Positions 7,361 through 64,000 of a stretch of 64,000 nucleotides of DNA are shown piece by piece. The DNA is from Glutinoglossum americanum. Lineage: Eukaryota > Ascomycota > Geoglossomycetes > Geoglossales > Geoglossaceae. Made by a program: the position numbers and the translations under genes. Position 1 is the first letter of the stretch. Every line of letters starts with the position of its first letter. Under the pieces are notes generated by a model. The model searched no databases. It saw nothing but the letters and a program-made list of their open reading frames with translations, and was not told the origin of the DNA. The stretch spans positions 93,273-157,272 of the forward strand of contig JAGHQL010000039.1 in the NCBI GenBank assembly GCA_020080175.1. The letters are read 5' to 3'.

Positions 7361-8357
7361 ATGGACGAGCCATCATCCTCCACGAGGGAATACGGACGAA
7401 TATTATCGTAAGTTACATTATCATATGGTCAAACAGCACCTTCCTCTAGCGGTTCACTTTTTCCTACCCCCACTTGAACGACGAAGCGTTTTCCTATCTC
7501 ACAGCCACTCTGCAAAGGCTGGTAATCATAAGCAACTCGCTTTTTTATGTTGGAAGGACTCGCTAACTTATAATTTCTAGTCGAGCCCCCGGGCGGCGCA
7601 GACGCGTCAATCATGATGGGGTATCTAATATCGGTGGAGTTGAACATGGACAGGATGAGGAATGTGTCCTTGAGGATGGCTCTTTTCGGACAGCATCCGA
7701 CGACCTCACGCCGCAAACCGAGTCACTGTTCAATAGCGGTAGCGCACCTTCATCCACAGGCACTTCCTCTTCCTCCTTACAAACCAACTACCAAGAGACC
7801 ATCCCTGACGATATTTCGCAAATCTCACAAACAACCTACTCCGAAGGGCCCTACAGCGACCCAGAACACACGCACACCAACCCACCCCCACTTCCGCATC
7901 ACAACCCTAATAACATCAACAACGCTTATTACAATAACTACTTCGGCGACGCTAGTTCCACTTACACATACACCCCGATAACCCCTACATCCCTCGAAGC
8001 CAATAACGTCTACCACTCACACGAACCCACCAGCGCCCGATATCGCGAGGAGGTATCTCGCGGCTTGCGCCACACGGCGCAACAGGACTTCCGCGTTCCA
8101 TACGCCTCCATAATGAGCGAAGCTGTGGGCGACCGACACGACGGGATCGTTCCGATGGAGCGCTATTGGCAGGCCGGAGCGAATAATCTTCAAGGTAAGG
8201 TACCCCTCCCCCAACGTTTCCCCGCCTCAAACACCAATGGGAGGAAGAAAAAATAAAAAATCAAGTCGCGTCGCTGATTTTTTTTCTTTTTTTTTTTTTT
8301 CCGCTGCGATTAGCAAGGACGAACCCACAGCAGCAACCCCCGGTCCGCGATCCGTGA
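7361..8357 (+). CDS. Hypothetical Ser/Asn/Pro-rich protein, three exons
   Basis: Function not recognised. Exons 7361-7407, 7581-8194 and 8314-8357 join in phase to a 234-aa protein. Donors are GTAAGT and GTAAGG; acceptors are TTCTAG and GATTAG, the second after a long T tract. The protein starts MDEPSSSTREYGR, has a short Arg-rich patch (GRRRRV), then a long disordered Ser/Thr/Asn/Pro/His/Tyr-rich middle (repeated NN, YY and PPP runs). A more ordered segment of about 45 residues follows (SRGLRHTAQQDF...SIMSEAVGD...MERYWQAG) and the tail is Gln/Pro-rich. No signal peptide or membrane span is visible. The acidic/polar low-complexity centre with a basic patch would suit a nuclear or regulatory protein, but that is only inference. 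Confidence 0.6.
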
Positions 8358-9514
8358 TGGCGGGGCGTGCCTCCCCCTTGATCTTCCTTGGGTTCTTCTC
8401 TACATGAACTCTTTTTCGCGAGCGCAAATTCAAGCGTGGCAGGCCCTCGTCTTGTTCTTAACCCTCGCGTCGGGGGCTCGAAGGAAGCTGGCCTTCCCTA
8501 GGCCTTCCCGGGGCCTTCCCTAGGCTTTTTTTCCTAAACGGTGAGAATTTCAAGGGAGCCTAGCCCTTTTATTGTTCATTTTTATTTTCCTTTCTCTTGG
8601 GCGGTGGAAAATTCGCGGGCTGTGGGCTCTTTATATTTATGTAGTATCCATCTTTTACTTTCGAGAGTGTCGGAGACGAGCTGCGGAAATCGTGGCGACC
8701 GACGCTTACTGAAATATTCTTCTCGCGGCATCTGTACGAACTATTCCTCATTTTTGTTTTTATTTATTTTTATTTTTATTTTTTTTTTCTCCTCTCCTAG
8801 CGTATTATAGCGTCTTCCTTTTCTACGTACATGAGAAGGGACGGGAAACATGGGATGGAATAAATCATGGGATTTTTTTGGTTGGTGCTTATTGGCGCCC
8901 AAGGATGGCAGGACTTTTTTTTGGCGGAGGCCTCTAAGCCCCCCCTCGTCCGGTGTGGAAGCGCGACTAAAAATAATTAGAAATTCAGAGAAGGGACAGC
9001 TGCTCGAAAACCAATGAATATTTCCTCATCGGCGGATTCAAGCCTGGATCCTTTTGTTTTAGCTTTCTCGTATCTCTTCCCGCCTTTTATTCATGGGATT
9101 TCGTCCCTTCCGCTCGGTGCGGGATGGCTAGCTAGGAGTCCAAGAGTCTTGAGCCTTGGCTGTGTCACCCACCGTCGGACTGCGAAGCTCGCAAACCCGA
9201 ACCCGAGGTTGAATGGCCTTCGACCATCGACCGTGAGCACATCTAAGCTCACCAAGGGTGGCGAGCAGCGTGCGAAACTTCTGCCGGGAAACAGGTATCC
9301 GGTATGTCGTGCTACGTACCTTTTAAGAAACATCTTGTGGGGCCCAAGAAAGCTGAGGGAAAAGAAGGTCTCGGTAGAAAGTGCCATGGAATGGTGCGGG
9401 ACAACCCTCTGGTTCTTGCATGGGCTGTGCTTGGCAGATCCCACAGACGCATTCGTCCGTCTTACCGCATCAACGTAGACCAAAAGAGCCCACGAGCCTT
9501 CACGGCAACACGTC
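8358..9514. other. Intergenic stretch, T-rich and low-complexity
   Basis: No supported gene. Near 8487-8527 the GGCCTTCCCTAGG motif is repeated in tandem, and there are long T-rich tracts (8750-8800, 8870-8925) of the kind found in fungal promoters and terminators. The overlapping open frames at 9014-9588 on both strands lack motifs and splice support. Confidence 0.4.
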
Positions 9515-9824
9515 ATGATCATCACGAGAAAATCTGCGCCTACCCTTCTCAGCCAGCTCCATCGACGAACGATTGGGATCGCGTCCATGGTAAGTTTTGG
9601 CGCGATTCCGAGTTGGTTTTTTGGAGGATCTGGGCGCGGGCTTGTGGGGGTGTGTGGGCTGCGCCCCCTCCCGTGTTCTTCCTATTTGCCTCTAGACGAT
9701 ACAGAGTAGATTGGAGAGCAGGGCTGAGCGAATTCCGCAGGCTGGATCCCAAGTTTGGATGGCATCCTGCCCCACCCTGACCAATCTCTGCGCGAGTCCC
9801 ATCCAAGCAACGAAGATACTATGA
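9515..9824 (+). CDS. Possible small two-exon gene (weak)
   Basis: Tentative. A 25-codon exon (9515-9589) ends in ATG followed by a perfect GTAAGT donor. A TTTGCCTCTAG acceptor at 9695 reopens the same frame (9696-9824), giving a 67-aa basic peptide with no recognised domain. The strong donor and phase match favour it; the short length and absence of a known family argue against. It may instead be the 5' end of a longer transcript. Confidence 0.2.
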
Positions 9825-19600: not shown

Positions 19601-22600
19601 TGGAGGAGGGAATATCGCCGTTGCGTGCATATACTGCAGCTATAAGGAGAAAGAAGGCCAAACAGTCGTCAATCTTATCGCGAGCCTGTTGCGGCAGCTA
19701 ATCCAGAAAAACGCCTTCATTTCTAATGAGATATCATCACTTTATCACCACCATATCGAGAAGCAGACGCGCCCTACATTTGACGAATGGTTTAAATTGC
19801 TACAGTCAGAGGCCCATCATCTTTCGAAGGTGTTCATTGTCATCGATGCTCTTGATGAATGCCCTGAAAGCAACGGCACCAGAGATGGCTTTCTCACCGA
19901 GATTCAAAAGCTGCCAAACATACATCTATTGGTTACCTCGCGGCACATCCCATCTATTGAGCGTGTGTTTGGAAAGGCAGCGCGTATGGAAGTTCAGGCA
20001 AGCAATGGGGATGTTAGAAGATATCTTGAATGTCGGATTATGAGGGATCATCGATTGGTACGCCGTATTGAAGCGGATCCTGCTTTGCAAGAAGCCATCA
20101 TAAATGCTATTATTGAGAAGGCTAAGGGAATGTAAGCACCCGATAGCAAGCCCTTAGCAAAGTCATATATGCTTTTGCTCATTCGTTCCTGGAAGGTTCC
20201 TTCTGGCTCAGCTTCATATGGACTCCCTGTTAAGAAAAGAAACTTGCGAGGACGTTCGGAAAGCTCTGGAGACTCCGCTAGAGGAGTTGGATGATTTCTA
20301 CAAGGAAGAGATGCGGAGAATTGAGAGCCAAGACACCGGTGATAAGCGACTGGCCGAGCGGGTCCTTTTCTGGGTCTCCTGCGCTCTGGAGCCGTTGACT
20401 TTGAAAAAGCTTCAACATGCACTAGCAGTCAAACCAGGCGAATCATGGCTTGACGATGACAGCATTTTAGACGCTGACATCTTGACATCTGTGTGCGCTG
20501 GATTGATCATTATCGATCTGGAGACTAGCATAATCCGTCCGGTGCATTACACTACCCAGGAGTACTTTAAGCGTATCCGTATAGCCAGGTTTCCGGGCGC
20601 CCAGACGAGTATCGCAGCGACTTGCCTCACATACATCTCATTCGATATATTTGCTGCGGGCCCTTGCCATAGCGACCAGGAGATGGAGATTCGGATGCAT
20701 AAATATCCTCTCCTTGAGTATGCCGCTCGACATTGGGGTGATCATGCACGTGGAGACCCGGAAGAGACGATCAAAGAGCTAGCTCAGGAATTTCTCGAGC
20801 ACAACTCGAAAGTGATGTGCTCCAACCAAGTCATGCACATTCCAGGATCTCGATATCCTGGGTATAGCCAGAGATTTCCGAGACGTCTAACTGGATTGCA
20901 TATCGCCGCATCTATCGGCTTGGCGAAAGTTGTCTGGCTACTACTCGAGCGCGAAGGCGCCGATGTGGACCCCAAGGACAATAACGGTTGGACACCTCTG
21001 TCGTGGGCCGCGAATAAGGGGCATGAAGTAGTGGTGCGGCTTCTGATCGAGCGCGAAGGCGTCAATGTAGATTCCAGGGATAACTCCGGTCAGACGCCGC
21101 TGTCGTGGGCCGCGGAGAGTGGGCACGAGGCGGTGGTGCGGCTTCTGTTCGAGCGTGACGACGTGGATGTGGACTCCAAGGACAATTGCGGTCGGACGCC
21201 GCTGTCGTGGGCCGCGAGGAACGGGTATGGAGTGGTGGCGCAGCTGCTGGTCGAGCGTGAAGACGTCGATGTGGACTCCAAGGACGACTCCGGTCGGACG
21301 CCACTGTCATGGGCCGCGGAGGACGGGCATGAGGCGGTGGTGCGGCTTCTAGTCGAACGCGAAGGCGTCGATGTTAACTCCAAGGATGATTTCAATCGGA
21401 CGCCGCTGTCGTGGGCCGCGAGGAATGGGTACGAAGCGGTGGTGCGGCTTCTGATAGAGCGTAAAGGCGTCGATGTAGACTCGAAGGATGACTCCGGCCA
21501 GGCGCCGCTGTTATGGGCCGCAGAGAACGGGTACGAGGCGGTGGTGCGGCTCCTGGTCGAGCGCGGAGGTGCTAATGTGAACTCTAAGGATAATTCCGGT
21601 CTGACGACGCTGTCGTGGGCCGCTGAGAAGGGGCGTGAGGCGGTGGTGCAGCTTCTGGTCGCGCGAGACGACATCGATGTGGACTCTAAGGACAATAACA
21701 GTCGGACACCGCTGTCATGGGCTGCGGAGAGTGGGCACGAGGCGGTGGTGCGGCTCCTAGTTGAGCGCGATGACGTCGATGTGAACTCCAAGGACAATAG
21801 TGGTCGGACGCCGCTGTTGTGGGCTGCGGAGAGGGGACACGAGGTGGTGGTGCGGCTCCTAGTTGAGCGCAATGACGTCGATGCGAACTCCAAGGACAAT
21901 ATCGGCCGGACGCCGCTGTCGTGGGCCGCCGGGAGGGGGCATGAGGCGGTGGTGCGGCTGCTGGCCGAGAGCGAAGGCGTTGATGCGAACACCAAGGATG
22001 ACTTCGGTCGGACGCCGCTGTCGTTGGCGGCCGGGGATGGGCACGAGGGGGTAGTACGGCTTCTGGTCGAGCGTAAAGGCGTCGATGTGGACTCCAAGGA
22101 CAATAGCGGTCGGACGCCGCTGTCATTGGCGGCCGAGAATGGGAGCGAGGCGGTAGTGCGGCTTTTGGTTGAGCGCGGCGATGTCAATGTGGACTCCAAG
22201 GACACTAGTGGTCGGACGCCGCTGTCGTGGGCCGCCGGGAGGGGGCATGAAGTGGTGGTGCGGCTACTGGCCGAGCGCGAAGGCGTCGATGTGGACTCCA
22301 AGGGCAGTTACGGTCGGACGCCGCTGTTGTTGGCGGCCGAGAATGGGCACGAGGCGGTAGTGCGGCTTCTGGTCGAGCGTGGCGACGTTGATGTGGACTA
22401 CAAGGACATTAGCCGTCGGACGCCGCTGTCGTTGGCGGCCGAGAATGGGCACGAGGCGGTAGTGCGGCTTCTGGTCGAGCGTGGCGACGTTGGTGTGGAC
22501 TACAAGGACATTAGCGGTCGGACGCCGCTGTCGTTGGCCGCGTGGAACGGGCATGAGGCGGTGGTGCGGTTTCTGGTCAAGCACGGGGGCGCCGATGTGA

Positions 22601-22701
22601 ACTCCAAGGACGATCGGGGTCATACGCCGCTGTCATCGGCCGTGATCAACCGGCATCAAGCCATAGTGCGGCTGCTGGCTCCGCTCACTTCAGGCCCCTA
22701 G
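16674..22701 (+). CDS. NLR-like STAND protein: helical N-domain, C2H2 fingers, NACHT, 17-18 ankyrin repeats
   Basis: Nine exons (16674-16910, 17216-17248, 17422-17431, 17483-18416, 18471-19245, 19316-19427, 19485-19509, 19568-20131, 20196-22701) join in phase to 1731 aa. The N-terminal helical domain (residues 1-115; DEFDRYK-type, ISLDYRLREA) is typical of fungal C2H2-NACHT proteins. C2H2-like fingers lie at about 387-470 (FECPYCL, YVCTYPDC, EEWYKHEIQRHR, CNLCLRSSVKLKSHVSRH). The NACHT has Walker A GAGKT split over introns (about 702-708), Walker B FIVIDALDEC (about 797) and a winged-helix-like linker. Ankyrin repeats run from about 1128 to the end with 34-aa periodicity. STAND proteins of this kind sense a ligand through the repeats and oligomerise through NACHT; in fungi several control incompatibility and cell death. 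It is intact, with all catalytic motifs present. Exon 3 is only 10 nt. Confidence 0.9.
20990..22690 (+). repeat. 102-bp tandem DNA repeats encoding the ankyrin domain
   Basis: Within the last NLR exon about 17 units of 102 bp encode TPLSWAA.xGHEAVVRLLvER.dVDVdSKDnSGR-type repeats. The units are much more alike than normal ankyrin repeats, including synonymous positions (CGGACGCCGCTGTCGTGGGC recurs many times). The high GC and lack of stops also create long antisense frames. This indicates recent unit duplication or conversion. Confidence 0.9.
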
Positions 22702-28669: not shown

Positions 28670-31600
28670 TCACATCCCCCAGAACTTCTTCCTTCTGATC
28701 AACCGCCCGTTTTTTAGCACCCACCCTGCCGGCAACTGAACCCCTACCTTCTCTAAGAACCCCGCTGCTATTGGGTCCCGCTTGTCGATCGCCAAATCCA
28801 TCGCCGACCTGCCCGTCGCCGTGATTGCCCGCGGATCCGCACCGAACTGGTAAAGTAGCTCGTAGGGATCGGGCTGCCCAGAGGGCATGTCGACTATCGC
28901 GCGATGCAGTAGCGTGAGGCCGTCGCGGTCGGGGGAATTGATCGTGGCACTTGCGGACGGTATGCCGAAGGTGTTGGGGGTCGCGGAAGCACTGAGGAGG
29001 AGCTTTAGGATCTGGATGTCCGGCCTGGAGATCGCTAGGTGTAGCGGCGTGCGCCCGCTCGAACTCAATGCTTTGGTGTCGATGGCGGGATCTGCGAGCA
29101 GCGCCCGACATGTCTCGATTGCGTTCGTCATGATCGCCGTGTGCAGCGCTGTATACTCTGATGTCCTGCATTTCGCATTCACCGGCGTTCCATATTTCAG
29201 GAGCACTCGCACGACCTTGGCGACGGCCTCGTCACGATTCCGGCCCTGGTCTGCGGCAATGTGGAGCGAGGTTCGGCGGGCACTGTCGGTTGCATGGGGG
29301 TTTGCACCTCTGGAGAGGAGCAAGGTCACCATGCCTACCTTCCCGTTTTCAGCGGCGTGGTGGAGGGGCGTGTATTTCAGGTCGGAGCGATCGGGGATAT
29401 CGATAGAGGCGCCTTCGTCAAGGAGAAGGGAGGCGATCTTTTTGTGGCCTTTGATGGCTGCCACGTGGAGCGGCGACTTTTCTTTGTCGTACTCTCGGTC
29501 TATGTCCACACCAGCAGCTATGGCGTTCCTGGCGTCTGCTACTAGTCCGAAGGAAACAGCAAGGAGGAACTCCGACCCATCATCACCGCGGTTTGCCGCA
29601 AAACTGGCTAGCTGCTTCCGCAACAGTCGCAGTGACGCCTCGTTCCCGTTCCGGGCCGCCAATCGCATCACCGACTCGCCCGCTATAGTTTTGGCTAGGA
29701 TATCGGCACCCTTGTCTAGGAGTAGCCACACGATGCTATCGTGGCCGCGGTCCACTGCCTTGTGTAGCGGCATCCACCCGGAGCGGTCCCGTGCGGTAGT
29801 GAGGGCTCGGTTTGCCAAGAGGATTCGTACGGCTTCTACATGCCCGTTAGAAGCCGCGAGGTGGAGAGGCGTCTGCTTGGTCGAGTCCCGCGCATTTACA
29901 GAGCCACTGTTGGCCAGAACAGCCTGACGGACTATCTGTTCATAGCCAGTTGCTGCTGCCCAATGCAGTACTGTCCAAGATCTGTCAATCCCAAGCTGTG
30001 TGGCACCTCTTGTTAATAGCGAGGACACCTGCTCGTCCCCACCATTTGCCGCTCGGTCCAAAGCAGCCTTTGATGGAGTCTCCCATGCAAGAGTTGTGAC
30101 GCTCTCAAGGAGGATGCGGGCTGCCACACATCTCTTCTCCACCGCAATGCCTAGCGCTGTGACTCCTCGGTGATCCGTTGTGTTGATGTCTGCTCCTCGC
30201 ACGAGTAAGAGCATAACCATGGCGTCCATGTCGTGCTCCGCTGCTATATGGAGCGCCGTCAGTCCCGACTCGTTCTTCGCTTCAACTGTGGCCCCCTTCT
30301 CTATGAGTTGTTCGGCTGTACGTGTGTGCCCACCTCGCGCGGCGTTGTGGAGTGGGGTTCCTCTCCACTGATTCTGTGCATTGACATCTGCTCCGTAGCT
30401 CAATAGTTCTCTAACCATCGAATCTTGCCCACGGGCAGCCGCTGGGTGGAGCGCTGTACCCCATTTGGTTTTTGCTTCAACGTTAGCACCCATCTTTAGC
30501 AAGAATCGCACCATGTCGTCTTGCCCACTCGCTGCAGCAATGTGAAGAGCTCGTGAATCTTCTGGTCCACCAGCATCAATGTTGGCCCCTTTCTCGAGCA
30601 GCAACTCCACGATATTTCTAGCCCCTTCTTTAACTGCGTAGTGCAGTGCCGTTGACCCATTGTTGCACCTTGACTGGATGTTGGCCCCTTTCTGTAGTAG
30701 CTGTCGGATTACTTGCTTATGTCCATTTTCAGCCGCCCAGTGTAGTGCCGTCCGTCCGTACTCAGCATCCTTCAAGGCTATGTTGGCGGATCCTTCCAAT
30801 AGTAGTCGGGCGACTTCTGTGTATCCACGGATGGAAGCCCAATGCAGTGGCACTCGCCCTCTCAAGTCCTTCGCGTTGGCATCGGCACCAGACTCTAGGA
30901 GTGGCCGTATTAAATCCGGGTAGCCCTTGATCGCCGCGAGGTGTAGTGCCGTTCTTGAATGCTCTTGAACTTCCATTGTTAGCGATTTATCGTTCCCAAG
31001 AAGCTTTCGCAGTAAGGACGCGTTCCCAAGGGTGGCTGCAACAAAGAAACGCTTAACTTGCTCCTGTAGTATCCCTTAGTGAACGCTCGGGAAGGGGTTA
31101 TCAAGAACTTACGTCTCTGGGAATATGGCATTCTAAGAGATCTGCTATGGGTTGTGGTCCTTTCTTCCTGGCCAAGTCAATAGCTGTCTCCCCACTCCTA
31201 TCCTTTAGGAGCAAAAGGCTTTCTGTGCCGTTCTTTGAGTGATTCTCGTGATCGAAAATCTGATTAATAATTAAGGAAGCCTGGTGGAAGTCAGACACAC
31301 GGAGGACGAGGTGGAGCACCGTGTAGCCTTCAGGGGTTTGCGCCCGATAGTCTGCTCCTTGTTGGAGCAACCACGAAACGGCGGCCGACTGCCCTTCACA
31401 TGTGGCTAGGTGGAGGGGCATATAGCCTGCGAGTGCTTCTGGGGCGGGGCCTGTTGGCTCACTGATAGAAGATCCTGCCCGGAGGAGGAGACCAAGTGCT
31501 TCGATGTTGCCTTCAAAAGCAGCAGAGTGTACAGCTCCGATACCAACAATATGTGGCACTCGCAGCTCCATTTCTTTCACATAATTTTGCTCATATAACT

Positions 31601-33871
31601 CCAGGAACCGTCTACAGATGCAGTCTGCTCTATCCGCATTTCCTACTGCCCGGAGGAACGAGTCAACTCTTGAGTACATTAAGATTGCTGCTCTGTTGAG
31701 CCCTTGACGTCGGGTTGCCTCCAGTATGAGAAGCTCATATTGCATGACCAAGGGCAGATACCGGGAATGCCCACCCGCTTGCAAGAGGCTGGTCATGCTA
31801 TCTTCTACTCTGTCTCGGTTGGTTGCTACGTCTTCTAGCGGGGAACCAATATGGGGAATTATTCTGGTAGCTAGGCCCTCTGCGCTGCCGCCATCTAAAT
31901 CGACTCTTGGTAATCTTGGCCCGCATTCCAGGAGTAATGTCGCACCTCTGGAGCTTGATGTTTTTCTTTGGTTTCCGGGTATTAGCCCAAGCGTTATGCA
32001 TCGTTGGTAGGTGGCTGCTTACCCATCTTTCACTGAGAGAATCTCTAAGTCAGGGGCTCGGTTGGCTAGGCTGGACCTGAAGTTCATTGTAACGTAAGGA
32101 CATTCGCTCAGGGCTCCGCTCAAAAGCAACACGGTCTTTTGTCCACTGGCATTGAGGGCCTCTAAGGTTTTCATCGCATGGACTAATTTGGCCAGAACAG
32201 GGTCAAAAACACCTTTACGAATGACGCTACTATCGATTTCGAGTCTCGAGTCGTGGATCCCGTTCTCCTGGTCGTTGGGGACGCTCCATGGTACTACGAT
32301 ACGATGACTTAGTGAGGCGGGAGGCGAAAGAGGAGAGTATTAGTTGTAGACACACATCTGGCACTGTAAAGCTTCTCTCCATCGAACCTAGGCAGATACT
32401 AGTATAAATCGGTATTGTCAGAGTGTCCGGGGTGCAAAGGGCGGGATTTACTCCAAGTACCTCTTCTAGAAAATGTTCCCTGATCTGCCCATGAAGCCGT
32501 GGTCAGCCATACCAATCTTGCCGGCGGGGTGTGTTCTTGCGGTGACAAAGCCGTCACAGACTGCCCGTACATCGAGCTCTGATTCCTGGAGAAGCGGTCC
32601 TAACTTGGCCCACGCCGTGGCTACAAGCCTTTCACCAATTTCTACACAACCTTGGGCGAGAATGTCGCAAGGAAGGTTGGGGTTAGATTCTGCATGCGCT
32701 TCTTCGGCAATATGGAGAGGTTTTATTCGCAATGTTGTAGCGGTTCGGCCGCCTGGACCGGGGCCACTTCTAGCGGCCTGGGTGACTTGGGCCACGGTGT
32801 ATTGGGTGAAAGTCTGGTAACGAGTCATCAGGACGCCCTTAAACCCAGTGAGGGGATGGGCTAACACACAGTCACTTCCTCCTCTATATGGCAGGAGAGT
32901 AGGATGCTGTCTTCTCGATAACGGCGGGACTCCGCCCGCCCAGGTAGTATGTGAGGCACGCCTCTGCTTCTGTGACCAGTCGTTTTGGCTCGAGACCGCT
33001 CTGCCTCAGGAGCTTGTCTAGTCTCGGTGAATTCGCCCCTAGCCAGGTGGGAATAACGATGCAATACTCCTCCACCGCATTCGCTTTTGCAGTAGCTGTT
33101 AGCACGGTCTCGCCGGGGGGAATGTGGCACTAATTGTGTTCCACCTACTATTGCTGAATGCGTTTGAAATCTGCAGGGCGACGTGGGCTTTTAGGGCGGT
33201 GAGGAAAGTAAGTAGACATGATTCGTCCTGCAGATCGCCAGGGCTCTCTTCCAGCGCGGGGCGGCACCGGTAGGTATATCTGCCATTTCTGTCGTAAAGC
33301 TCTGAAAGAATCTGTCGAGCAGCTGTGGAACCAAATGATCTTGTTGCTTTGCTTGGTGTTGGTCAGTATAGTGGCTAGGACGGACTAGGGAGAAGCCCCG
33401 AAACATGTAGAAGTTTTACAGAAGTAGTAGTCTCTCGGATTTTTCGTAGGCTGTGACTCGATAGCCCCAGGCAGAGTTCCCTTCCGGGAAATCCTCGCTG
33501 CATCTCAGCTGACTGATTTACGGAAACATTAGCAATTCATCAATTGTGAAGCCCTGGACAGGCTCTCACATTGGAACCGATTCATGGTGAATGGAAGGAG
33601 CATCAGGCCAGTTATGGATGATTTGGGGGTCCCGATTCTACAAGTATCTGAGGGGTCAGTCTAGCCTTGGAAAGGCTGGCAACTGGAAAGGCATCTGATA
33701 TAAAACCTACCGGACCAGATAACCTGAAGGACACCGATGCCGAGCCTGATCCCAACGCTATCCCGACCTGAATGAGTGAGCACGAACGTCGGGCTTCTTT
33801 TCGTGCTTGAGCCGGGTTCTGCTCCACAGAGGGCGAGGACTCACTAGGATCTTCTCCGACTCAACGCTCAT
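28670..33871 (-). CDS. Hsp70-like (degenerate ATPase) - ankyrin repeat fusion protein
   Basis: Minus-strand exons: 33871-33845, 33767-33711, 33637-33570, 33512-33420, 33351-33149, 33095-~32571 (one unresolved junction near 32930), 32484-32461, 32398-32356, 32293-32023, 31965-31113, 31063-28670. All other junctions keep phase. The N-terminal part follows the fungal Hsp70-like nucleotide-binding domain and shares intron positions with the gene at 34254. Key motifs are altered: VGIALGSGS in place of the phosphate-1 IDFGTT, HIEEEVT in place of DAGGGT, LLLSGALSECPY in place of LLVGGFGxSxYL. A 57-bp intron with a CTAAT branch then joins it to about 23 ankyrin repeats (3 before 31113, 20 after). It is probably a pseudo-ATPase or scaffold fused to a recognition domain. 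One apparent frame change near 32930 could be a missed intron, an assembly error or a lesion. Confidence 0.7.
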
Positions 33872-40696: not shown

Positions 40697-43369
40697 TCAA
40701 AACCAACAGCTACTGCAGGAGGGAATGGAGGTCGGTCCACTCAATGACGCTGACTCTTGGATGGACAGTGTAGCATCGTAGAAAACGTCCTCTAGGTCTA
40801 CCGCTGTGTCGAGATTCCGTTGCGGATAATCTGTAGCCACCAGTGCGTGGTACGACATATATTGCCGAATATTCATAGGTGAGCTCCTCAAAATATCAAG
40901 CAACCATCCGTTTACGCGATCGCGAGTGCTCTTAAGATCCCCAATGGGACCGCCAGCTTCAGGAGCCCGCTCGCACTGAATGATTCCCTCATTAGAGATT
41001 ATCATGGTTCCTGACCCCTCTGTCCGCTGCGTTTCTTCACCCTCGGGCTTCACTAAGGGAGTCTTCACACTAAGTTCAGGTGATGCAACAAGCGAATACT
41101 CTACTGGCAGGTCGTTGCTAAGTAGGCCCTCAGAGATGCACCTTAACTTCAATTTATGGGCCCCAAGCTCAAGCTCCCTAAGCTCGCTTTCTAGCCCTTC
41201 ATGAGTGGGCTCAAAGGTAGCGAGGAAATTTGCGTTCTCCTCGCTCATCCCAATACCATAATCCTTTCTGAGTTGCTGTTCTTTGAAGAGCTCCCTTTGG
41301 TGAAATTCAAGTTCGTGAATTCTTTCTCTCACGATATTGACATCACCCGTCTTGGCAAAGTAGTCTTGTAGAAGTGGGTGATAGACTGGGGCTTCTTCGC
41401 TGTTGGTGCTTGGGGATTTGGATGTGGTGCCCTTAGTAGCCTTGAATCCTTTAGAACCGCAGCTAGAGGGACGAGTCGCGGTATGGCACCGTTTATATAA
41501 CTGTATGTACTTTTCTAAAGCTTGGTCACACAGTGGCTGAATCATTCGTGATTGGTTTCTCATTGGTGTTTCCCAGCGATTGGTCCGTGGTTTTGGATCG
41601 TAGTTCCCTCCCTGGTTTGCGAAGCTGTCTATCTTAGCTATGCTCTTAGATAGTATTTGAGTTTCAACAGGATTCAAAAATTCTCTCGCTAGCTCATGGT
41701 TCCCCTCAGATCCTTGCAGGGAAGCCGAACTCAGCTTAAGAAACCGTTCGTACGCAGAGCTTGGGCCGGCGTCATGGTTCTGTTGCACTAGAAGTCCTTT
41801 GATATCCATTTCAATACTAGAGACGGAGGCCGAAGAATCGGTAGTGCCCGTATCGGGCACCAATTTGTCGATAGATTTTGGCTGCCTTTGTGGAGGACCC
41901 TTGGTCTCAGTTCGGTTCCCGTAATTCATTCTGGTCCTACTTGGAGCAATCGCAGCGAGGGTCGGCTGCATCCCAGCCTGGTTACACTCGCTAACTTCCA
42001 GTTTCGCGCGCAGTTCAGCGATCTCGGCTATGCGGACATTGCCCTCAGTTCTTAGCTTTTCTTGAGTAAGTTGGAGTGCCGATTCGAGCTTCCTGACCTG
42101 CTCCGCTAACGTCTTACTTGAATTTTCGGCCAACTCCTGTCGAAGCTTGCTGTCTGAGAGCTGCCCCTGCAGAAATAGAAACTCGGATTTGTGTAAGGCG
42201 GTCTCCATCTTACGCTCTTCTCTACTGGATTGGAGAGCTTCTTCAAGTTGAGAAATTCGATAATAGAGTCCTGTTATCTCGGCTTCGTGTAGCTGTTCGC
42301 TCCTTTGCATGGCTGAGTTAAAAACTTGGGATAGCTCTACCGATATAGGGAGCCCATTGCAGCAAGGCGCGTGCAGCACCGATAAGTCACCCCCAAGCTT
42401 GGCGATCTCCATGCTCACATTTGAGGCTTCAGGGCGGTCCGCGGGGTTGGTGCCCAACATTCGCCTTATCAAAGGGAACATCTTGACTTCTAGGTGTTCT
42501 GGAATTGTCTTTTCTGCTAGCTTTTCAACCCACAATTCCGTTTGGATCGGGCATAGGTGGAAATGGCTGTTCCCGGTCGATGTCCGCTGAAACGCTTTAA
42601 GGTCGGTTAGTGATTCGGCATGTAAGACAGTGGCCATTTCTAGAAAGATGCACCCTAGCGAGTATATGTCCGCTGGGCGGCCACGGAGGTTCCAATTCTC
42701 AAGTTCCGGTGCGAAGTATCGGACGCTTCCCCTCTCAAGTCCATCAGATTCGCTGCGATCTCGCTCTGAAAAATCAGTGGACACACCAAAGTCGGTTACC
42801 ACGATGCCTCTTTCGGTGACCAAGATGTTTTGAGGTTTGAGGTCTTTATGCCGAATACCGTTCCCATGAAGGTAGGTAATCGCATTAGCAAGACAACCAA
42901 AGTTTCTCTTCAGGAACAGAGCTGGGTGTGCGAGTTTCTCAGATTGCGAGGCCTCCATGATAGAAAATCCTAGTCTCCTCCATGGGTCCTTCGACTGGTG
43001 CTCAAGAGGTGATTCGAATCTTAGCAAAAGCGTATTCAGGTCACATATCGCCACTGGCCACAGCAGGATTCCTATCCAGCCTCTGTAAGTGTAAGAGCCA
43101 ATATATCTGATAATGTGAGTACCCCGCAGTTTGCGTAGGATGTTGATCTCGTTTTGTATTGCCTCTTTGCGACGTGTGAATTTCCTAGCCAATCTGACGC
43201 CTTTGCAAACGACCTCATACACTTGGCCACTAAGTCCCTCTCCGATGGCATGTCCAACATCCAAAGGGACACTGTCGTTGTCGTCGAAATCCACGTGTGG
43301 AAGCCCGCGACCTGACCAATTATCCAAAACGGATTCAACCTCCTCCATCGCCCTGGATCTACAATCCAT
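40697..43369 (-). CDS. Large Ser/Thr protein kinase with C-terminal coiled coil
   Basis: A single uninterrupted exon of 890 codons. Kinase domain at about residues 38-335: glycine loop GEGLSGQVYEV, lysine in RLARKFTRR, helix-C Glu in IQNEINIL, catalytic loop IRHKDLKPQNIL (HKD in place of HRD, catalytic Asp present), DFG in VTDFGVS, APE as FAPELE, and GRPADIYSLGCIFLEMA. All catalytic residues are present, so it should be active. After about 345 comes a long predicted coiled coil (EEALQSSREERKMETALHK and following), a disordered linker, and a second helical, charged segment (VRERIHELEFHQRELFKEQQ). The C-terminus ends in SCSSCWF. Fungal kinases of this layout are common in expanded lineage-specific families; substrate unknown. 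The ATG at 43369 is chosen; one at about 43348 would also suit. Confidence 0.9.
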   Translation of the reverse strand: MDCRSRAMEEVESVLDNWSGRGLPHVDFDDNDSVPLDVGHAIGEGLSGQVYEVVCKGVRLARKFTRRKEAIQNEINILRKLRGTHIIRYIGSYTYRGWIGILLWPVAICDLNTLLLRFESPLEHQSKDPWRRLGFSIMEASQSEKLAHPALFLKRNFGCLANAITYLHGNGIRHKDLKPQNILVTERGIVVTDFGVSTDFSERDRSESDGLERGSVRYFAPELENWNLRGRPADIYSLGCIFLEMATVLHAESLTDLKAFQRTSTGNSHFHLCPIQTELWVEKLAEKTIPEHLEVKMFPLIRRMLGTNPADRPEASNVSMEIAKLGGDLSVLHAPCCNGLPISVELSQVFNSAMQRSEQLHEAEITGLYYRISQLEEALQSSREERKMETALHKSEFLFLQGQLSDSKLRQELAENSSKTLAEQVRKLESALQLTQEKLRTEGNVRIAEIAELRAKLEVSECNQAGMQPTLAAIAPSRTRMNYGNRTETKGPPQRQPKSIDKLVPDTGTTDSSASVSSIEMDIKGLLVQQNHDAGPSSAYERFLKLSSASLQGSEGNHELAREFLNPVETQILSKSIAKIDSFANQGGNYDPKPRTNRWETPMRNQSRMIQPLCDQALEKYIQLYKRCHTATRPSSCGSKGFKATKGTTSKSPSTNSEEAPVYHPLLQDYFAKTGDVNIVRERIHELEFHQRELFKEQQLRKDYGIGMSEENANFLATFEPTHEGLESELRELELGAHKLKLRCISEGLLSNDLPVEYSLVASPELSVKTPLVKPEGEETQRTEGSGTMIISNEGIIQCERAPEAGGPIGDLKSTRDRVNGWLLDILRSSPMNIRQYMSYHALVATDYPQRNLDTAVDLEDVFYDATLSIQESASLSGPTSIPSCSSCWF

Positions 43370-44716
43370 CGGGGGGAATTATCTCTTCCCGATTCCTTCC
43401 AGATGTGCCGTCTAGCTCTGGGGGAGATTTCGAGAGATTCCGATAGCGCCACAGCAAAGCCAATGGTGGCCTCGTTGCTTGCATTTGTTTCTCAGAGGCC
43501 AGACTAGCGGTTTTGGATCCTTCACAAGAGGGCGGAAATACCACTGATGTAGTGTGAATAATCTAGGCTAAAGAGGCTAGACTATTGGAGAGCTATCCTC
43601 GACAGCTCGATTAGTTCTCGATGAGTCGATCTCCCAGAAAAAAGTAGACGTCTGGGCGATGCGGAGTGCGGGGCTGTGGAGATGCTAGGTATTGAAGATT
43701 TTCCTGGTCAGGTGACACGTCATGAAGTAGCTATTCGCTACAATCTGCTGGGCTCTTAAACAGGAAAATTTTAAAATCGCTTTAGTTTTATACTGCTGAA
43801 AGGCCAGAGCTAGGAAGCTATGCGAATAAAATCCCAAAATTTCCAGATTGGCATGATTATTGCAGCATGAATGCTGGTTAGGGTTGCGAAACTTGAGGGA
43901 GTAAACAAATTCTGGTTCTAGAAAACCTTGCAGGCCTGTTCAAGAGAGTCTTGGGATATGCGAGCCAATACAACTGCTGTACTCACCTAATGTCTCGACC
44001 GAAACGTTGGACTTTAACTAGCGGAATAGACACCTCTGACTTCGTTTTTTTAATTTCTCTACCATGTTGGGCGATAGTGGCTGGGTCGCAGAATGCTTCA
44101 CCTTTGTCAAATGGCCAACACCGTCCTTACCTGGAAGAGTAGAGGATGAACTGGTAAACGACCAGAACATAATCTCTATCAGAAGTAGCTAGAGTAGTAG
44201 TGAGAAGAAGAGGAAGTGACTGAGCATGGGGTGCGTGTCGAAGGTATGTTTTTGAGGGTGTCCTTGGGTGTTTTAGGAACGCATATAACCCAATAGATTT
44301 CAACTGACTGGTGGACTCGGGATTGGACCGATAGGTGAAGCTCACGTATTAGTGGAGTTTGGATGGACACCTACTAGGCACTCTAGCCCGAGGCCCTAGC
44401 AGTGTTTTTGGGCCTAAAGTCACGGCAATTTTAGCTTTTTGCTGATTAACTTATCGTTGCTTAAGCATCTAGCTCTATGTCAACGAGTTGCGCTTATGGC
44501 TGCTAGGCCCGTCATTATTCTCTCCCCTCAGACTTAAATAACCTCCGAACTGCTGACTGGACCGTGATCTGGGACAATCTAAGTCTGGCGTGTTATATCT
44601 AGTCAAGTTAGGCTTAGCCATGTTGAATGTATGTACTTGAGTTAGGTAGATATTCGTTTGTTATTTGCACAATCAAAAAATCACGAGCCACCATCTATCT
44701 ATCTACACGCAGCCCC
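43370..44716. other. Intergenic stretch upstream of the kinase
   Basis: No supported gene. Reading frames are short and lack motifs. It contains the promoter of the minus-strand kinase and the 3' region of the AAA+ gene. Confidence 0.45.
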
Positions 44717-47597
44717 TCACCTTCCCCTCGATCTATACGCCACAATCTCTCCATCAGGTTGTACATCGAACTCAAACTTTTCCGCCTCACCATCTTCACA
44801 AATTTCGTCATTCAGGCCCAAATACGCCATCACTAATGGCTGAACAACCGTCTCATCGACCCCATTCTGTAGACTCCTCGCCCCCAAATCTGGGCTATAC
44901 TCGTCCTTCGCCAACTGAAGGCACAACGAGGCATCACGTCGCACTATGAGATCGATATTCCCGAGTAGATTTTCGGCTTCGGAGGGGTTCTTGGGGATTT
45001 TTACAGGGGCCCGGACGGACCGCGCGAGTTGGAGAACGAATTTATGAGCTACGACGGCCTGTTCACCAAGGGAGAAGGGGAGGAAGGGAAGGATGGCATT
45101 TATGCGACCAGCGAGGGGGTGCTGTGTGGTGTGGGTTAGTGATGATTGGATGCTTAGGTAAGGGCATTTTTCCCTTTAGAGGTTGATAAACTCACCCCAA
45201 ATTCGTCGCTCAGAGCAGGTTTCAGCTTCTTCTGCAAGGCTTTTACCACTTTCTTAATCTTCCCGTGATCTTCGGTACTGGATAATTCTTTATCGTGTGT
45301 ATCGCAGAATGACTTGATCCTCCTGTCGAGCGCGTTGGTGGCGAGGATCCAGATGGTTTTTGAGCAGTCGACTACGTTAGATTTGCCGCGTCGTCTGGGG
45401 TTGGGAATTAGCTATTGTGGGGAAGCGAGAGGGATTGGAGGAGAGTGTCTTGCCGTCGGTCTGAGTAGCGTCCTATTAAGAGGTGAGCCTTCGTTTTGCG
45501 AGCTAGCTAGGCAATTTTCCAGAAGTAAGAAGTGACGAACGAACCTTCATCAAATGGAATCAGCAGCGCGTTCCGCACCCCCGGCCCTGACTTTTCAAAC
45601 TCGTCTAGAAAAACTATCGATTTCTGTCCCCCCATATGTACTAGGAAGTTGTTGAGTGGTGACCCTTCTTCTGACCCCACATATGGCGCCTTAGGTCCGA
45701 AAATGTCTGTTTCGGATCGCATTTCTGTCATGTCGACGCGCTCCATCTGGATGGATAGGAGGTCACCTAGGCGTTTCGCGAGCTCAGTCTTGCCGTGGCC
45801 GCTGGGTCCTGCGAGGGTTCTACGGTTAACGTGGAGATAGATAGAGAGAGATGGTGGGTTAAGGGGTAGAGTACCTGCAAAGACGAGAACTAGAGGCCTT
45901 TTCTTCGGGAGGACCATATAGCTGAGGAGCCTCTCGATCAGCCACCCTGCGGCTGTGGGTTGACCGATTAGGAAATACGATATCCCTAGCATCGCTGTCG
46001 AATTATTCCTCTTAGCAACCCACCGATGCCGGAACGAAGGCTGCTCCGTCCTCAAAGTCTTGTCCAGAAAGTACCGCTGGGACAAATTCAGCGCCGCCGC
46101 CAGCTTTGGGCGTATGTAATCTTTACACCAGTCCCTTTTGTCATCATCGATATCGGTAAGCGACTCCCTGGTGGGACCCTTTGCAGGGAGGTCAGTTAGG
46201 TAGGGCGTGAAGAATGCATTGGGGATCACTGAGGCGTCTGCACCGAGGCTTAGGAGAGCTGTGAGGACGTCTGTTGTGTCCTCGTCACAGTGCTCGGTGG
46301 TCAGAATGGCGAACGCAAGAAGGGGGATGTTGTAATTGTCTTCGATGACGTTGACGTCGCCGCCATGGTCCGCCCAAGTTCGTACGATAGCTTCGTCGTT
46401 AGTGGCGACAGCATAGAAGATCGCAGGGTAGTCCTCAACTTCAGCATTGAGATAGCTCGCCAGTGCCGCGGGTTGGCCGTTGTAATAAGAGAGGTAGGTC
46501 TTGAGTCGGGCGTTGGTGAGTCCATTCTGTAGCCCATTGATCACCTTCTCGATCGAGAAGGGCCCTGGCGCGGCGCCCTCGTCTGGAAACCGGTTATCTT
46601 CCGTTTCATCGAGCTCAATGATGGGAAGTTTGAAGTCCCATTGCTCGGGCCTGGGCGGGGGTCCAGGCTCTGGATCTGGACCCGATTCTGGGTCCGATTC
46701 TGAATCCGGCTCTGAGCCTGGCTCTGAGCCCGTGTCTGGGTCGGCAACGTCGGAGACTGGGGTGATGCTCTCTACGGACGGAGACTGAGGCCCTAATTTT
46801 GTCATTAGCTTCGAGTTTGAGAGAAGGGAGGTATGTATGGATTGTATGGGTTAGGAGGGTAGGAAAGTGATTTACTTGTGTGGAGCTTCGCTGGCGATTC
46901 TGGCCGTGGACTGTTTGAAAAGTTCGGAGGTGTAGGATTTGCATGCTTGCCTAAGCCGGCATCATGGGCAGTTGTGTCTGGATCGGCGTATATGCCGGGC
47001 GGATTTTTGCTTACTGGTGAAGATTTGTTCATGTTACTTTGGGGTAGATCCTTCGATGATGGTGGGCCGCGCAGGCTGTTTGTAGGCGAAGGTTCTGAAG
47101 GAGACATGCCCGGACCTGTAGCCGGTTCTCCAATGAGGTGTGGTTCGCCACGACCACCTTTTGACGTGTTGCCTGGGGTTAATGAATCTTCTGGACTTGG
47201 AATGTCGTGGTTAGTAGAGCTGGTAGGGAGTTGGGAATTGGGTTCGCCCTCGAGGGTTCTGCTGTGCTGGGATGCTCCACCTCCTGCTTCGCTATTGGGC
47301 GGATTGATTCGTCGAGGGGAGGGTGCTACCTTATATGGGTCAATGTGACAATCCCTTCAATGTTGAAGCGTAACCTACCTCGTTTAATATCTTGAGGGCA
47401 CCGAGCGCATCATCGATGTTTTGATTGCATGCCTACGTAGGAGGCTAAGTTTCTCGACCAATTATAGAATAGGATACTCGAGAAGGAAGGATGCATAGTT
47501 TATATCGTACCTTCCATGCGCAATCCGCAAGGGCTGCGTCGCAACCCGTCTCCTCTTGTAGCCTTCTAACGGCTGCCCTCGCTCGCTCAGCAGTCAT
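44717..47597 (-). CDS. UBA - ankyrin - ClpB-type AAA+ protein (CLPB/Skd3-like architecture)
   Basis: Seven exons (47597-47511, 47432-47379, 47329-46876, 46792-45875, 45808-45541, 45394-45196, 45121-44717) join in phase to 794 aa. Residues 1-48 look like a UBA domain (AVRRLQEETGCDAALADCAWK, then NQNIDDALGALKIL). A Ser/Pro-rich then Asp/Glu/Pro-rich disordered stretch follows, then ankyrin-like repeats (AIFYAVATNDEAIVRTWADH and next). The AAA+ core has Walker A GPSGHGKTELAK, pore loop PYVGSEEGSPL, Walker B SIVFLDEFEK, sensor 1 IWILATN, and sensor 2 GARSLQNGV. This is the Hsp100/ClpB second-domain type; ankyrin plus one ClpB AAA+ recalls animal CLPB (Skd3), a disaggregase. UBA suggests binding of ubiquitinated clients. 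The intron removing 46875-46793 contains an ATG that a simple frame search would take as the start. Confidence 0.85.
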
Positions 47598-61513: not shown

Positions 61514-62236
61514 GTAGATATTGTAGCTTAAAATAAATAATAGAATAAATGGGAATGGGAACGGAGTCGCTTAGTCAGGGTTTAACCAAAAATCTGGTTA
61601 GACGTTGACTAAGCAGAACGAAGCATAAAATTTCAAAGCGATCGCACGCCGACGTAAGCAACGCGGATTAGGTCCATTTTTTGAGGCGAATCAAACGCCA
61701 GTCGCGGAATTGCGATTGGACGTATGGTCGCGAAGTTATGAGGTGCGAAAGTTGAGGTACTTAGGTTTATGGAACCCCGAGTGGGGTAATGGGTGACTCG
61801 GTGGGTTACTCAGTGCCAATTGAAGTGGGCAACCCAGCCGTGGGCCACATAGCATGAGGCTCGGCGAAATAAGCGAGGCTCGGCACCTCAACAAAAATTA
61901 AAAATAGAGAATAACGACTTTACATCACAACAACGCAACAACGAAGTAAGTTATTAAAATTCTGAGGAGGCCATATTCTCCGCAGCGCTGTATTTAGTAA
62001 TGGATGTTATTGGTGGAAAGGTCGGATAGCGTTGAGTAGGGTAAAAAAAATAGAATGTGATTTTTTACCCTAACACTTATTATCCCAGTTATTACGGCGT
62101 AATAACTGAAATTTGTATGAGGAAACCTTAATTGAGCTATGACCGCAACGCCAAGGTACAGCCTAATAACTGAAACATCTACACCATAATAACTGAAGAT
62201 AAAAATAAATTAATTATTAACGAGTTTTAATAACTT

Positions 62237-62239
<3 letters not shown>

Positions 62240-62271
<32 letters not shown>
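62240..62271. repeat. (AT)16 microsatellite
   Basis: An uninterrupted AT dinucleotide run of about 32 bp marks the entry into the AT-rich terminal block. Confidence 0.95.
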
Positions 62272-62275
<4 letters not shown>

Positions 62276-62364
62276 CATATTAATTCTAATAAGTTATTAT
62301 TCTATTACAGGTAAGTTAGGTAAAATCTAATTGAGAAAAAAAAAAAGAAATGTCAAAAATCAAT

Positions 62365-63190
62365 TGATATAATCTGGAAATTTTAGATCAAGTCTAGTAA
62401 GATAAACTAAAATTTCTAGATTAGGTTAGGAGAGGTAAATTAGAATTTCTAAATAAGGTCAGGTGAGGTGAACTAGAATTTCTAGATGAGGTCAGGTGAG
62501 GTGAATTAGAATTTCTAGATCAGGTCAGGTAAGGTAAAGTAGAATTTTTAGATAAGATTATATAAAATGAACTAGAATTTTTAGATAAGATCATATAAGG
62601 TAAACTGAAATTTTCATATAAGGTTAGGTAAGGTAAAGTAAACTAGAATTTTCAGATAATATCAGGTGACGTGAACTGGAAATTCCAGACCAGGTCATGT
62701 GAGGTGGGAGTAAAAACTCCAAACCAGATCATACAAGATAAAGTGAAAACTCTAAGCTAGGTCATGCAAGGTGAAGTGAAAACTCTAAGCTAGGTCATGC
62801 AAGGTGAAGTGAAAACTCTAAGCTAAGTCATGCAATGTAAATTGGAAATTCCAAGTTAGGTCATGTAAGGTGAAGTGGAAATTCCAAGTAAGGTCATGTG
62901 AGGTGAACTGGAAATTCTAAGTCAGGTCATGTGAAGTGAACTGGAAATTCCAGACCAGGTCATGTGAGATGAACTGGAAATTCCAAACTAAGTCATATGA
63001 CGTGAACTGGAAATTCCAGACCAGGTCATGTGACGTGAACTGGAAATTCCAGATCAGGTCATGTGAGGTGAGGTCATACAAGATGAAGTAGAAACTTTAA
63101 GCTAAGTCAAACAAAATGAATTGGAAATTCCAAGTCAGGTCATGTGAAGTGAACTGAAAATTCCAAGTCAGGTCATGTGAGGTGAAGGAA
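62365..63190. repeat. 33-34 bp minisatellite array (about 25 degenerate copies)
   Basis: Repeating unit of the type GTGAACTGGAAATTCCAG followed by a CAGGTCATGTGAG-like half. The left copies are AT-shifted (AACTAGAATTTCTAGAT), the right ones less so. Each unit carries a short palindrome (TGGAAATTCCA or TAGAATTTCTA). No coding frame crosses the array. The gradual change from left to right fits an old array accumulating transitions. Confidence 0.85.
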
Positions 63191-64000
63191 AAATATAAGA
63201 GGGTTTAAAAAGGATTAAGGTATAGAGTTATTAATAGTATTGAAGACTTCAATGAAGTTAAAAATAGTTAAGATATTTCAAAGATTAATAAAATTAAAAT
63301 ATTAAAAGGATTGACAGAGTTAATGTAATGGGTTTGATAAAATTAAAAGAATTAATAGAAGTAATAGGGGTAATAGAAGTAATAAGGATAATGGGATTAA
63401 TAGGGTTCATAAAAGTTAAATATAATAGGATAAGTATAATTAATAAAGTTAAGAGAATTAAAACGATAGAATTGGTAGGGTAAATTGGGTTGATTAATAG
63501 GATTAATAGTATTAATGAGATTAGAGTGATAGGATTGGTAGAGTAAATGAGGTTAGTTAATAAGATTAATAAGGTTAATGAGATTAATGCAATAAGATTG
63601 ATAAGGTTAAAAGGGTTAAAAGGGTTAAAAGGGTTAATATGATTAATAGAATTAATAAAATTAATGAAATTAATAAGGTTAATAAAATTAATTTAGTAGG
63701 ATTGGTAGGGTTCATAAAATTAATAGAATTAATATAATAGAATTGGTAATATTTAAAACATTAATGAAATTAATTTGATGGAATTGAAAGAATTGGTAGT
63801 ATTTATAGCATTAATAGAATTAATATGATAGAATTGATAGAATTAATGGAATTAAAAGAGTTAATAAAATTAATAAAGTTAATAAAATTAATGCAATAGG
63901 ATTAGTAGGGTTAATAGAATTGGAGGGGCTGATACAGTAAGATTGATAGAGTTAATGGAATTAATAAAATTAATAAAATTAATGTGATTAAGAAGATTAA
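63191..64000. repeat. AT-rich, cytosine-poor degenerate short repeats
   Basis: Degenerate TTAATAGAATTAAT / GGTTAAT-type short units fill this stretch to the window end. On the given strand C is rare while G persists (GGATTAATAGG, AAGGGTTAAAAGGGTTAA), so the strands are strongly asymmetric. It is non-coding, and is probably subtelomeric or heterochromatic satellite-like DNA that continues beyond the window. Confidence 0.8.

Follow-up and report, generated by a model that had tools for sequence, protein, structure and literature searches.

Several described groups of proteins come close to the gene considered here, which lies on the minus strand (33871-28670) of a 64,000-nucleotide stretch of the Glutinoglossum americanum genome ('the window'; contig JAGHQL010000039.1) and appears to join a very divergent Hsp70-like domain to ankyrin repeats. 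The atypical fungal Hsp70s SSZ, SSE and LHS act on canonical Hsp70s or on their J-protein, the kind of action that the minus-strand protein may also have; SSE serves canonical Hsp70s as a nucleotide release factor, and SSZ is the partner of the J-protein Zuo1 (PMC3879978, the sections consulted). The main text of that paper never uses the word 'ankyrin'. Fungal ankyrin NLRs resemble the gene in placing a switch-type domain before ankyrin repeats. Theirs, however, is a P-loop NTPase (NACHT or NB-ARC), often preceded by an N-terminal effector, whereas the present gene has the ASKHA fold without intact ATP loops (sections of PMC4986451 and PMC9815663), and the word 'Hsp70' is absent from the main text of the fungal NLR and cell-death papers (PMC4986451, PMC9815663, PMC12881547). 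Oyster DED/TRADD-N proteins carry ankyrins or HSP70 domains in their variable C-terminal regions, which places HSP70 in immunity-type architectures; these are animal proteins with other partner domains, and the order Hsp70 then ankyrin is not described in the sections of PMC8195603 consulted. The fungal HSPA12-type proteins, represented here by the gene's plus-strand neighbour and by nine loci elsewhere in the genome (L034-L042), share with the fusion the order of the nucleotide-binding domain (NBD), conserved introns and a final VVRGAL helix. The fusion differs in that the catalytic loops are gone and the region after the NBD is now a linker and ankyrins. For the names HSPA12, ASKHA, phosphate-1, phosphate-2 and adenosine motif we follow what we take to be accepted usage, as we do for the functions of the residues concerned. 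To our knowledge, no role is known for HSPA12-like genes in fungi, and SSZ, SSE and LHS, unlike the fusion, keep the C-terminal parts of Hsp70 and carry no ankyrins. No fungal Hsp70-ankyrin fusion is named in the literature searched (titles and abstract openings; fungal protein databases were outside that scope).

The window belongs to a draft assembly (25.8 Mb, 317 contigs), and its introns and gene content point to a filamentous ascomycete. Upstream of the ankyrin open reading frames (ORFs) the minus-strand reading is broken into many short frames. When spliced, the region becomes one open frame of 1481 codons, and there are no internal stops in either of the two models of this gene. The product is predicted to run from a full-length, very divergent HSPA12-like Hsp70 NBD through a linker to ankyrin repeats. 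Codon usage of the model ranks 64th among 3000 random stretches of the window (the other two frames rank 1513 and 2738) and the in-frame codon score is the best in 8 of 10 exons. The original prediction had proposed a degenerate Hsp70-like ATPase domain fused to ankyrins. A pseudo-ATPase domain fused in this way fits the evidence; the accompanying idea that ankyrins have taken the place of the last Hsp70 segment is not borne out, as described below.

Homology to Hsp70 extends across the whole predicted NBD, which we assign to the Hsp70/HSPA12-type ASKHA domains from its sequence. A spliced alignment with the L012 protein alone gave no Hsp70 match in the minus-strand region (score 44, within the ankyrin exon) and family profiles were therefore needed. 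With a profile of all ten family members the local spliced score is 63, against maxima of 32 in 100 dinucleotide shuffles and 34 in 52 other window stretches; with subfamily B alone, without the neighbour, it is 86 (maxima 39 and 42, respectively). End-to-end NBD scores are 39, 56 and 42 with three profiles, compared with maxima of -159, -118 and -157 in 150 shuffles each. Among single-sequence queries, 9 of 10 exceed their 20 shuffles (the exception is L042, 48 versus 51), and the highest local scores are obtained with the neighbour (128) and then L035 (121). Only one minus-strand ORF, 32339-32022, is significant by itself. An hmmsearch over the 1640 ORFs of the window marks it as Hsp70-like (E 1.5e-7), and its segment 32294-32025 gives an hhalign probability of 94% (E 1.1e-7), in both cases with a profile that includes the neighbour. 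It is 33% identical to the neighbour, which is also its only other match in the genome (E 0.0056); a PDB search with this ORF returned chance matches only.

The strongest argument for a single gene lies at the join between the two parts. The intron at 32022-31966 is 57 bp long, has GT-AG borders and a CTAAT branch site, lies in phase 2 and leaves one open frame after splicing; the original prediction had already given its length, its branch site and the in-phase join. This phase-2 position recurs in 9 of the 10 family models (it is missing in L042), which identifies the joining intron, at the level of sequence, as an ancestral intron of the family. From the split codon onward, 13 residues, GKTSSSRGATLLL, align without gaps to AWSAVVRGALLRI, a score reached by 185 of the 79356 13-mers of the window (274 if the neighbour is left out of the profile). 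The family profiles place SRGATLLL, directly after the intron, on the VVRGAL segment that had been thought replaced by ankyrins. The exon with the first ankyrin repeats thus appears to begin inside the Hsp70 domain and, because the VVRGAL counterpart heads this exon, the fusion is better supported than was first realized. On balance, what the minus-strand protein lacks would be the region after the NBD and not the last NBD segment.

The catalytic motifs of this NBD are not intact. At phosphate-1 the minus gene reads VGIALGSGSAS where the family has CAIDFGTTFSG, a change already recognized. At phosphate-2 the motif DAGGGT is lost as predicted, either because HIEEEVT stands in its place or because its exon is skipped, which the aligner favours. 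The proposed HIEEEVT itself is uncertain. Enumeration yields 48 stop-free joins that reach the end of the phosphate-2 exon at donor 32869, of which a single GT-donor join, intron 32959-32907 (weak donor GTGCCT), retains EAEA and the entire ILLSCHIEEEVT; with EAEA and a GT donor retained, HIEEEVT is in frame solely through this intron combined with intron 32869-32814. With both loops altered, a linker and ankyrins after the NBD and no substrate-binding domain, the predicted protein is not a canonical Hsp70 chaperone.

The C-terminal part is an ankyrin-repeat protein by its tandem 33-residue repeats. Pfam Ank assigns 16 stretches to the last exon plus one to the preceding exon, and a hidden Markov model (HMM) built on 11 of the protein's own repeats also finds 17; the earlier figure of about 23 is reached only by counting degenerate units. 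Ankyrin genes are very numerous in this genome (at least 220 matches after scoring of 150 of the 973 candidates), so that a donor array was available. Among those scored, the top-ranking array other than this one has 46% identity, and no donor of the fusion's array can be named. The 2.4-kb DNA has no further copy in the genome, and the linker has neither a Pfam match nor a paralogue in the genome at E 1.

Searched with a single divergent Hsp70-like protein, the genome yields 16 matches. Once fragments are joined and the four contigs that carry ordinary Hsp70s are set aside, ten HSPA12-type loci remain: the neighbour and nine others, read as stretches of 9 to 9.9 kb, whose spliced models show recurring introns. 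A six-member family profile hits PDB chains of DnaK and Hsc70 (best E 1.9e-18), and for 4 of the 6 members the match to Pfam HSP70 has an E of 0.01 or lower. Four loci (L037, L039, L040 and L041) form a subfamily with an altered phosphate-1 (GLT or GMT for GTT) and LSGGLGSS or LSGGLCSS that retains DAGGGTTD or DSGGGTTD. The ankyrin HMM revealed no ankyrin fusion at any of the nine other loci of this genome. Only at L041 is an ankyrin ORF present (8348-9778, minus strand), convergent with the Hsp70-like gene and unfused.

The neighbour, which the original prediction missed, is divergent in orientation from the fusion gene, and the pair seems to stem from a head-to-head duplication. The minus gene carries introns at the family's positions: depending on which of three profiles is used, 6, 8 or 7 of its 9 introns match introns of the plus gene (within five profile columns and in the same phase). 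In shuffles (150 per profile) the mean is 0.63 to 0.76 and the maximum 3, 2 and 3. Counted in the same way, L035 has 4, 5 and 4 matching introns and each of the remaining eight loci 0 to 2. In the final models the NBD intron phases are 0,0,2,2,1,2,0,0,0,1,2 for the minus gene and 0,0,2,2,1,0,0,0,1,2 for the plus gene; these series are not independent evidence because the plus gene guided the choice of exon 1 and of the phosphate-2 exon. A tree cannot place the minus copy (see below), and the argument for duplication therefore rests on intron positions and adjacency. The 382-bp spacer contains no inverted repeat; one 19-nucleotide pair (79%) sits outside it, within the two genes. A scan for bacterial promoters and terminators was empty, although such models say nothing for a fungus.

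Table 1. Coordinates of the fusion gene, its neighbour and the spacer between them (positions in the window)
Feature	Position	Strand	Basis or remark
Canonical HSPA12-type Hsp70-like gene	34254..~36580	+	IDFGTTFSG and DAGGGTVDL intact; 3' end approximate
Spacer between the two start codons	33872..34253	.	382 bp; presumed shared promoter, from the start codons
Exon 1, MSVESEKIL	33845..33871	-	Spliced model
Phase-0 intron after exon 1	33844-33768	-	Same place as after MANQKIL in the plus gene (first exon of that gene placed by eye)
Exon 2, degenerate phosphate-1 loop VGIALGSGSASVSF (family form CAIDFGTTFSGIAF)	33711..33767	-	Family-profile alignment
Exons 3 and 4	33637-33570, 33512-33420	-	Flank a phase-2 intron common with the plus gene; alternative acceptor 33498
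Exons 5 and 6	33351-33149, 33083-32960	-	LTFLTALKAH..., EYCIVIPTWLG...RLVTEAEA; acceptor of exon 5 differs from profile to profile; end of exon 6 flexible, could reach 32923
Phase-1 intron	33148-33084	-	Common with the plus gene
Possible phosphate-2 exon ILLSCHIEEEVT	32870..32906	-	Phase-0 donor (32869) like that of the plus gene; may be skipped
NBD exons	32813-32571, 32484-32452, 32398-32356	-	The two short exons have different borders in different profiles
NBD exon, adenosine-motif region VFDPVLAKL...VLLLSGALSECPYV...LEILSVKD	32023..32293	-	Profile and neighbour match
Phase-2 intron, NBD-to-ankyrin join	31966..32022	-	Family's conserved position ahead of the VVRGAL helix
Exon with SRGATLLL (last NBD segment), linker and first ankyrin repeats	31113..31965	-	Spliced model
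Phase-0 intron	31112-31064	-	Precedes the last exon
Last exon, ankyrin repeats and stop codon	28670..31063	-	Pfam Ank
Ankyrin ORFs	28670-31075, 31101-32018	-	ORF list, Pfam Ank

Given the domain order, open frame, shared introns and lost motifs of the sequence model, we consider it somewhat probable that this is a single gene, born of a head-to-head duplication, whose HSPA12-type NBD without catalytic loops, linker and ankyrins make up a docking or targeting subunit of a canonical partner. An Hsp70-like gene would have been duplicated head to head; the plus copy would have stayed canonical, while the minus copy diverged, lost the region beyond its NBD and acquired the linker and ankyrins. The pair may share a promoter and be co-expressed. 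The dead NBD could still fold and dock on the canonical partner, much as SSZ and SSE regulate canonical Hsp70s, and the ankyrins could select what the complex binds. The minus-strand protein would then be the targeting or sensing subunit and the plus-strand protein the ATP-driven switch. Such a duplicate pair, one member canonical and the other an ankyrin-bearing pseudo-ATPase, would offer a concrete and testable case for the roles of HSPA12-like genes, and would indicate how a chaperone-type fold could become a recognition module.

A number of results weigh against this reading. Docking, co-expression and sensing are proposals from sequence. Pfam finds no HSP70 match in the N-terminal part of the fusion, and even the neighbour falls below the Pfam cut-off (14.7 versus 20.6 bits, E 0.0088). 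With stiffer gap and intron penalties the first exons alone align (scores 48 and 43), and with two profiles lacking the neighbour the local mode recovers the first three exons only. The splice choices come from our own spliced aligner, exon 1 and the phosphate-2 exon were picked with the neighbour as a guide, and the donors at 32959 and 32570 are weak. At the join, the aligner with the neighbour protein as lone query takes acceptor 31915, drops SRGATLLL and aligns the linker to the sequence that follows the neighbour's NBD. In the linker, codon bias fails to pick out the reading frame. The branch of the minus copy in the tree is 6.6 changes per site. The structure models are of low quality (pLDDT 44 and 54; the linker is helical in a poor model), and a fold search from a low-confidence model was non-significant (top match glucokinase, E 0.23, which was not used).

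It is rather unlikely that only the ankyrin protein is made and that its Hsp70 portion represents an untranslated leader or a pseudogene in decay. Such decay would agree with the extreme divergence apparent in the branch of 6.6, the damaged phosphate-2 region and the weak splice sites; yet more than 400 NBD codons remain open despite this divergence, intron positions and phases are retained and in-frame codon usage is coding-like.

We also regard as unlikely the presence of two genes: a truncated Hsp70-like gene ending at the in-frame TAA at 32021, with the intron kept, and an ankyrin gene starting from a methionine in the linker. The unspliced reading indeed stops immediately past ...SVKDG, and in-frame ATGs occur at 31796 (the first), 31745 and 31679. 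However, the frame before 31796 is open, and its first residues past the ancestral intron correspond to the last NBD segment, so that there is hardly space for one gene to end and another to begin.

A paired receptor, in which ligand sensing falls to the dead, fast-evolving Hsp70-ankyrin protein and the ATP-driven switch is its canonical partner, would be a non-P-loop counterpart of paired NLRs. We find this quite unlikely.

Very doubtful is a receptor proper, that is, an NLR-like fusion with Hsp70 replacing NACHT that triggers a death or defence response, as the original prediction had imagined. It would be in keeping with the order of NBD then ankyrins and with an NLR-type winged-helix/ankyrin gene approximately 6 kb away. 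Against it, the NBD has no catalytic motifs, no NACHT or NB-ARC domain is matched by Pfam in the scanned parts of the fusion, Pfam finds no effector domain (amyloid motifs were not searched for), and similarity among the clear repeats is not high (13 units picked by hand have a mean pairwise identity of 0.38). An NLR-like function is a guess from sequence, and a canonical paralogue lying head to head with the fusion is as compatible with a regulatory Hsp70 pair as with a receptor. Finally, an artefact of assembly or gene modelling is scarcely credible: the assembly is a draft, but Hsp70 homology flanks the join on both sides with the ancestral intron between.

The winged-helix gene (20158-22701, plus strand) combines GPIID_WHD with ankyrin repeats, and a NACHT part would be located upstream. 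Mean identity of its repeats is 0.69 in 16 units, a value biased upward because the units were chosen by pattern. Elsewhere in the window, the minus strand carries a protein kinase ORF of 893 codons (40697-43378) and an AAA_2 domain gene whose long N-terminal stretch matches nothing in Pfam (45507-46850). At 62001-64000 the G+C content falls to 28%, with a strong skew of G over C and repeated words.

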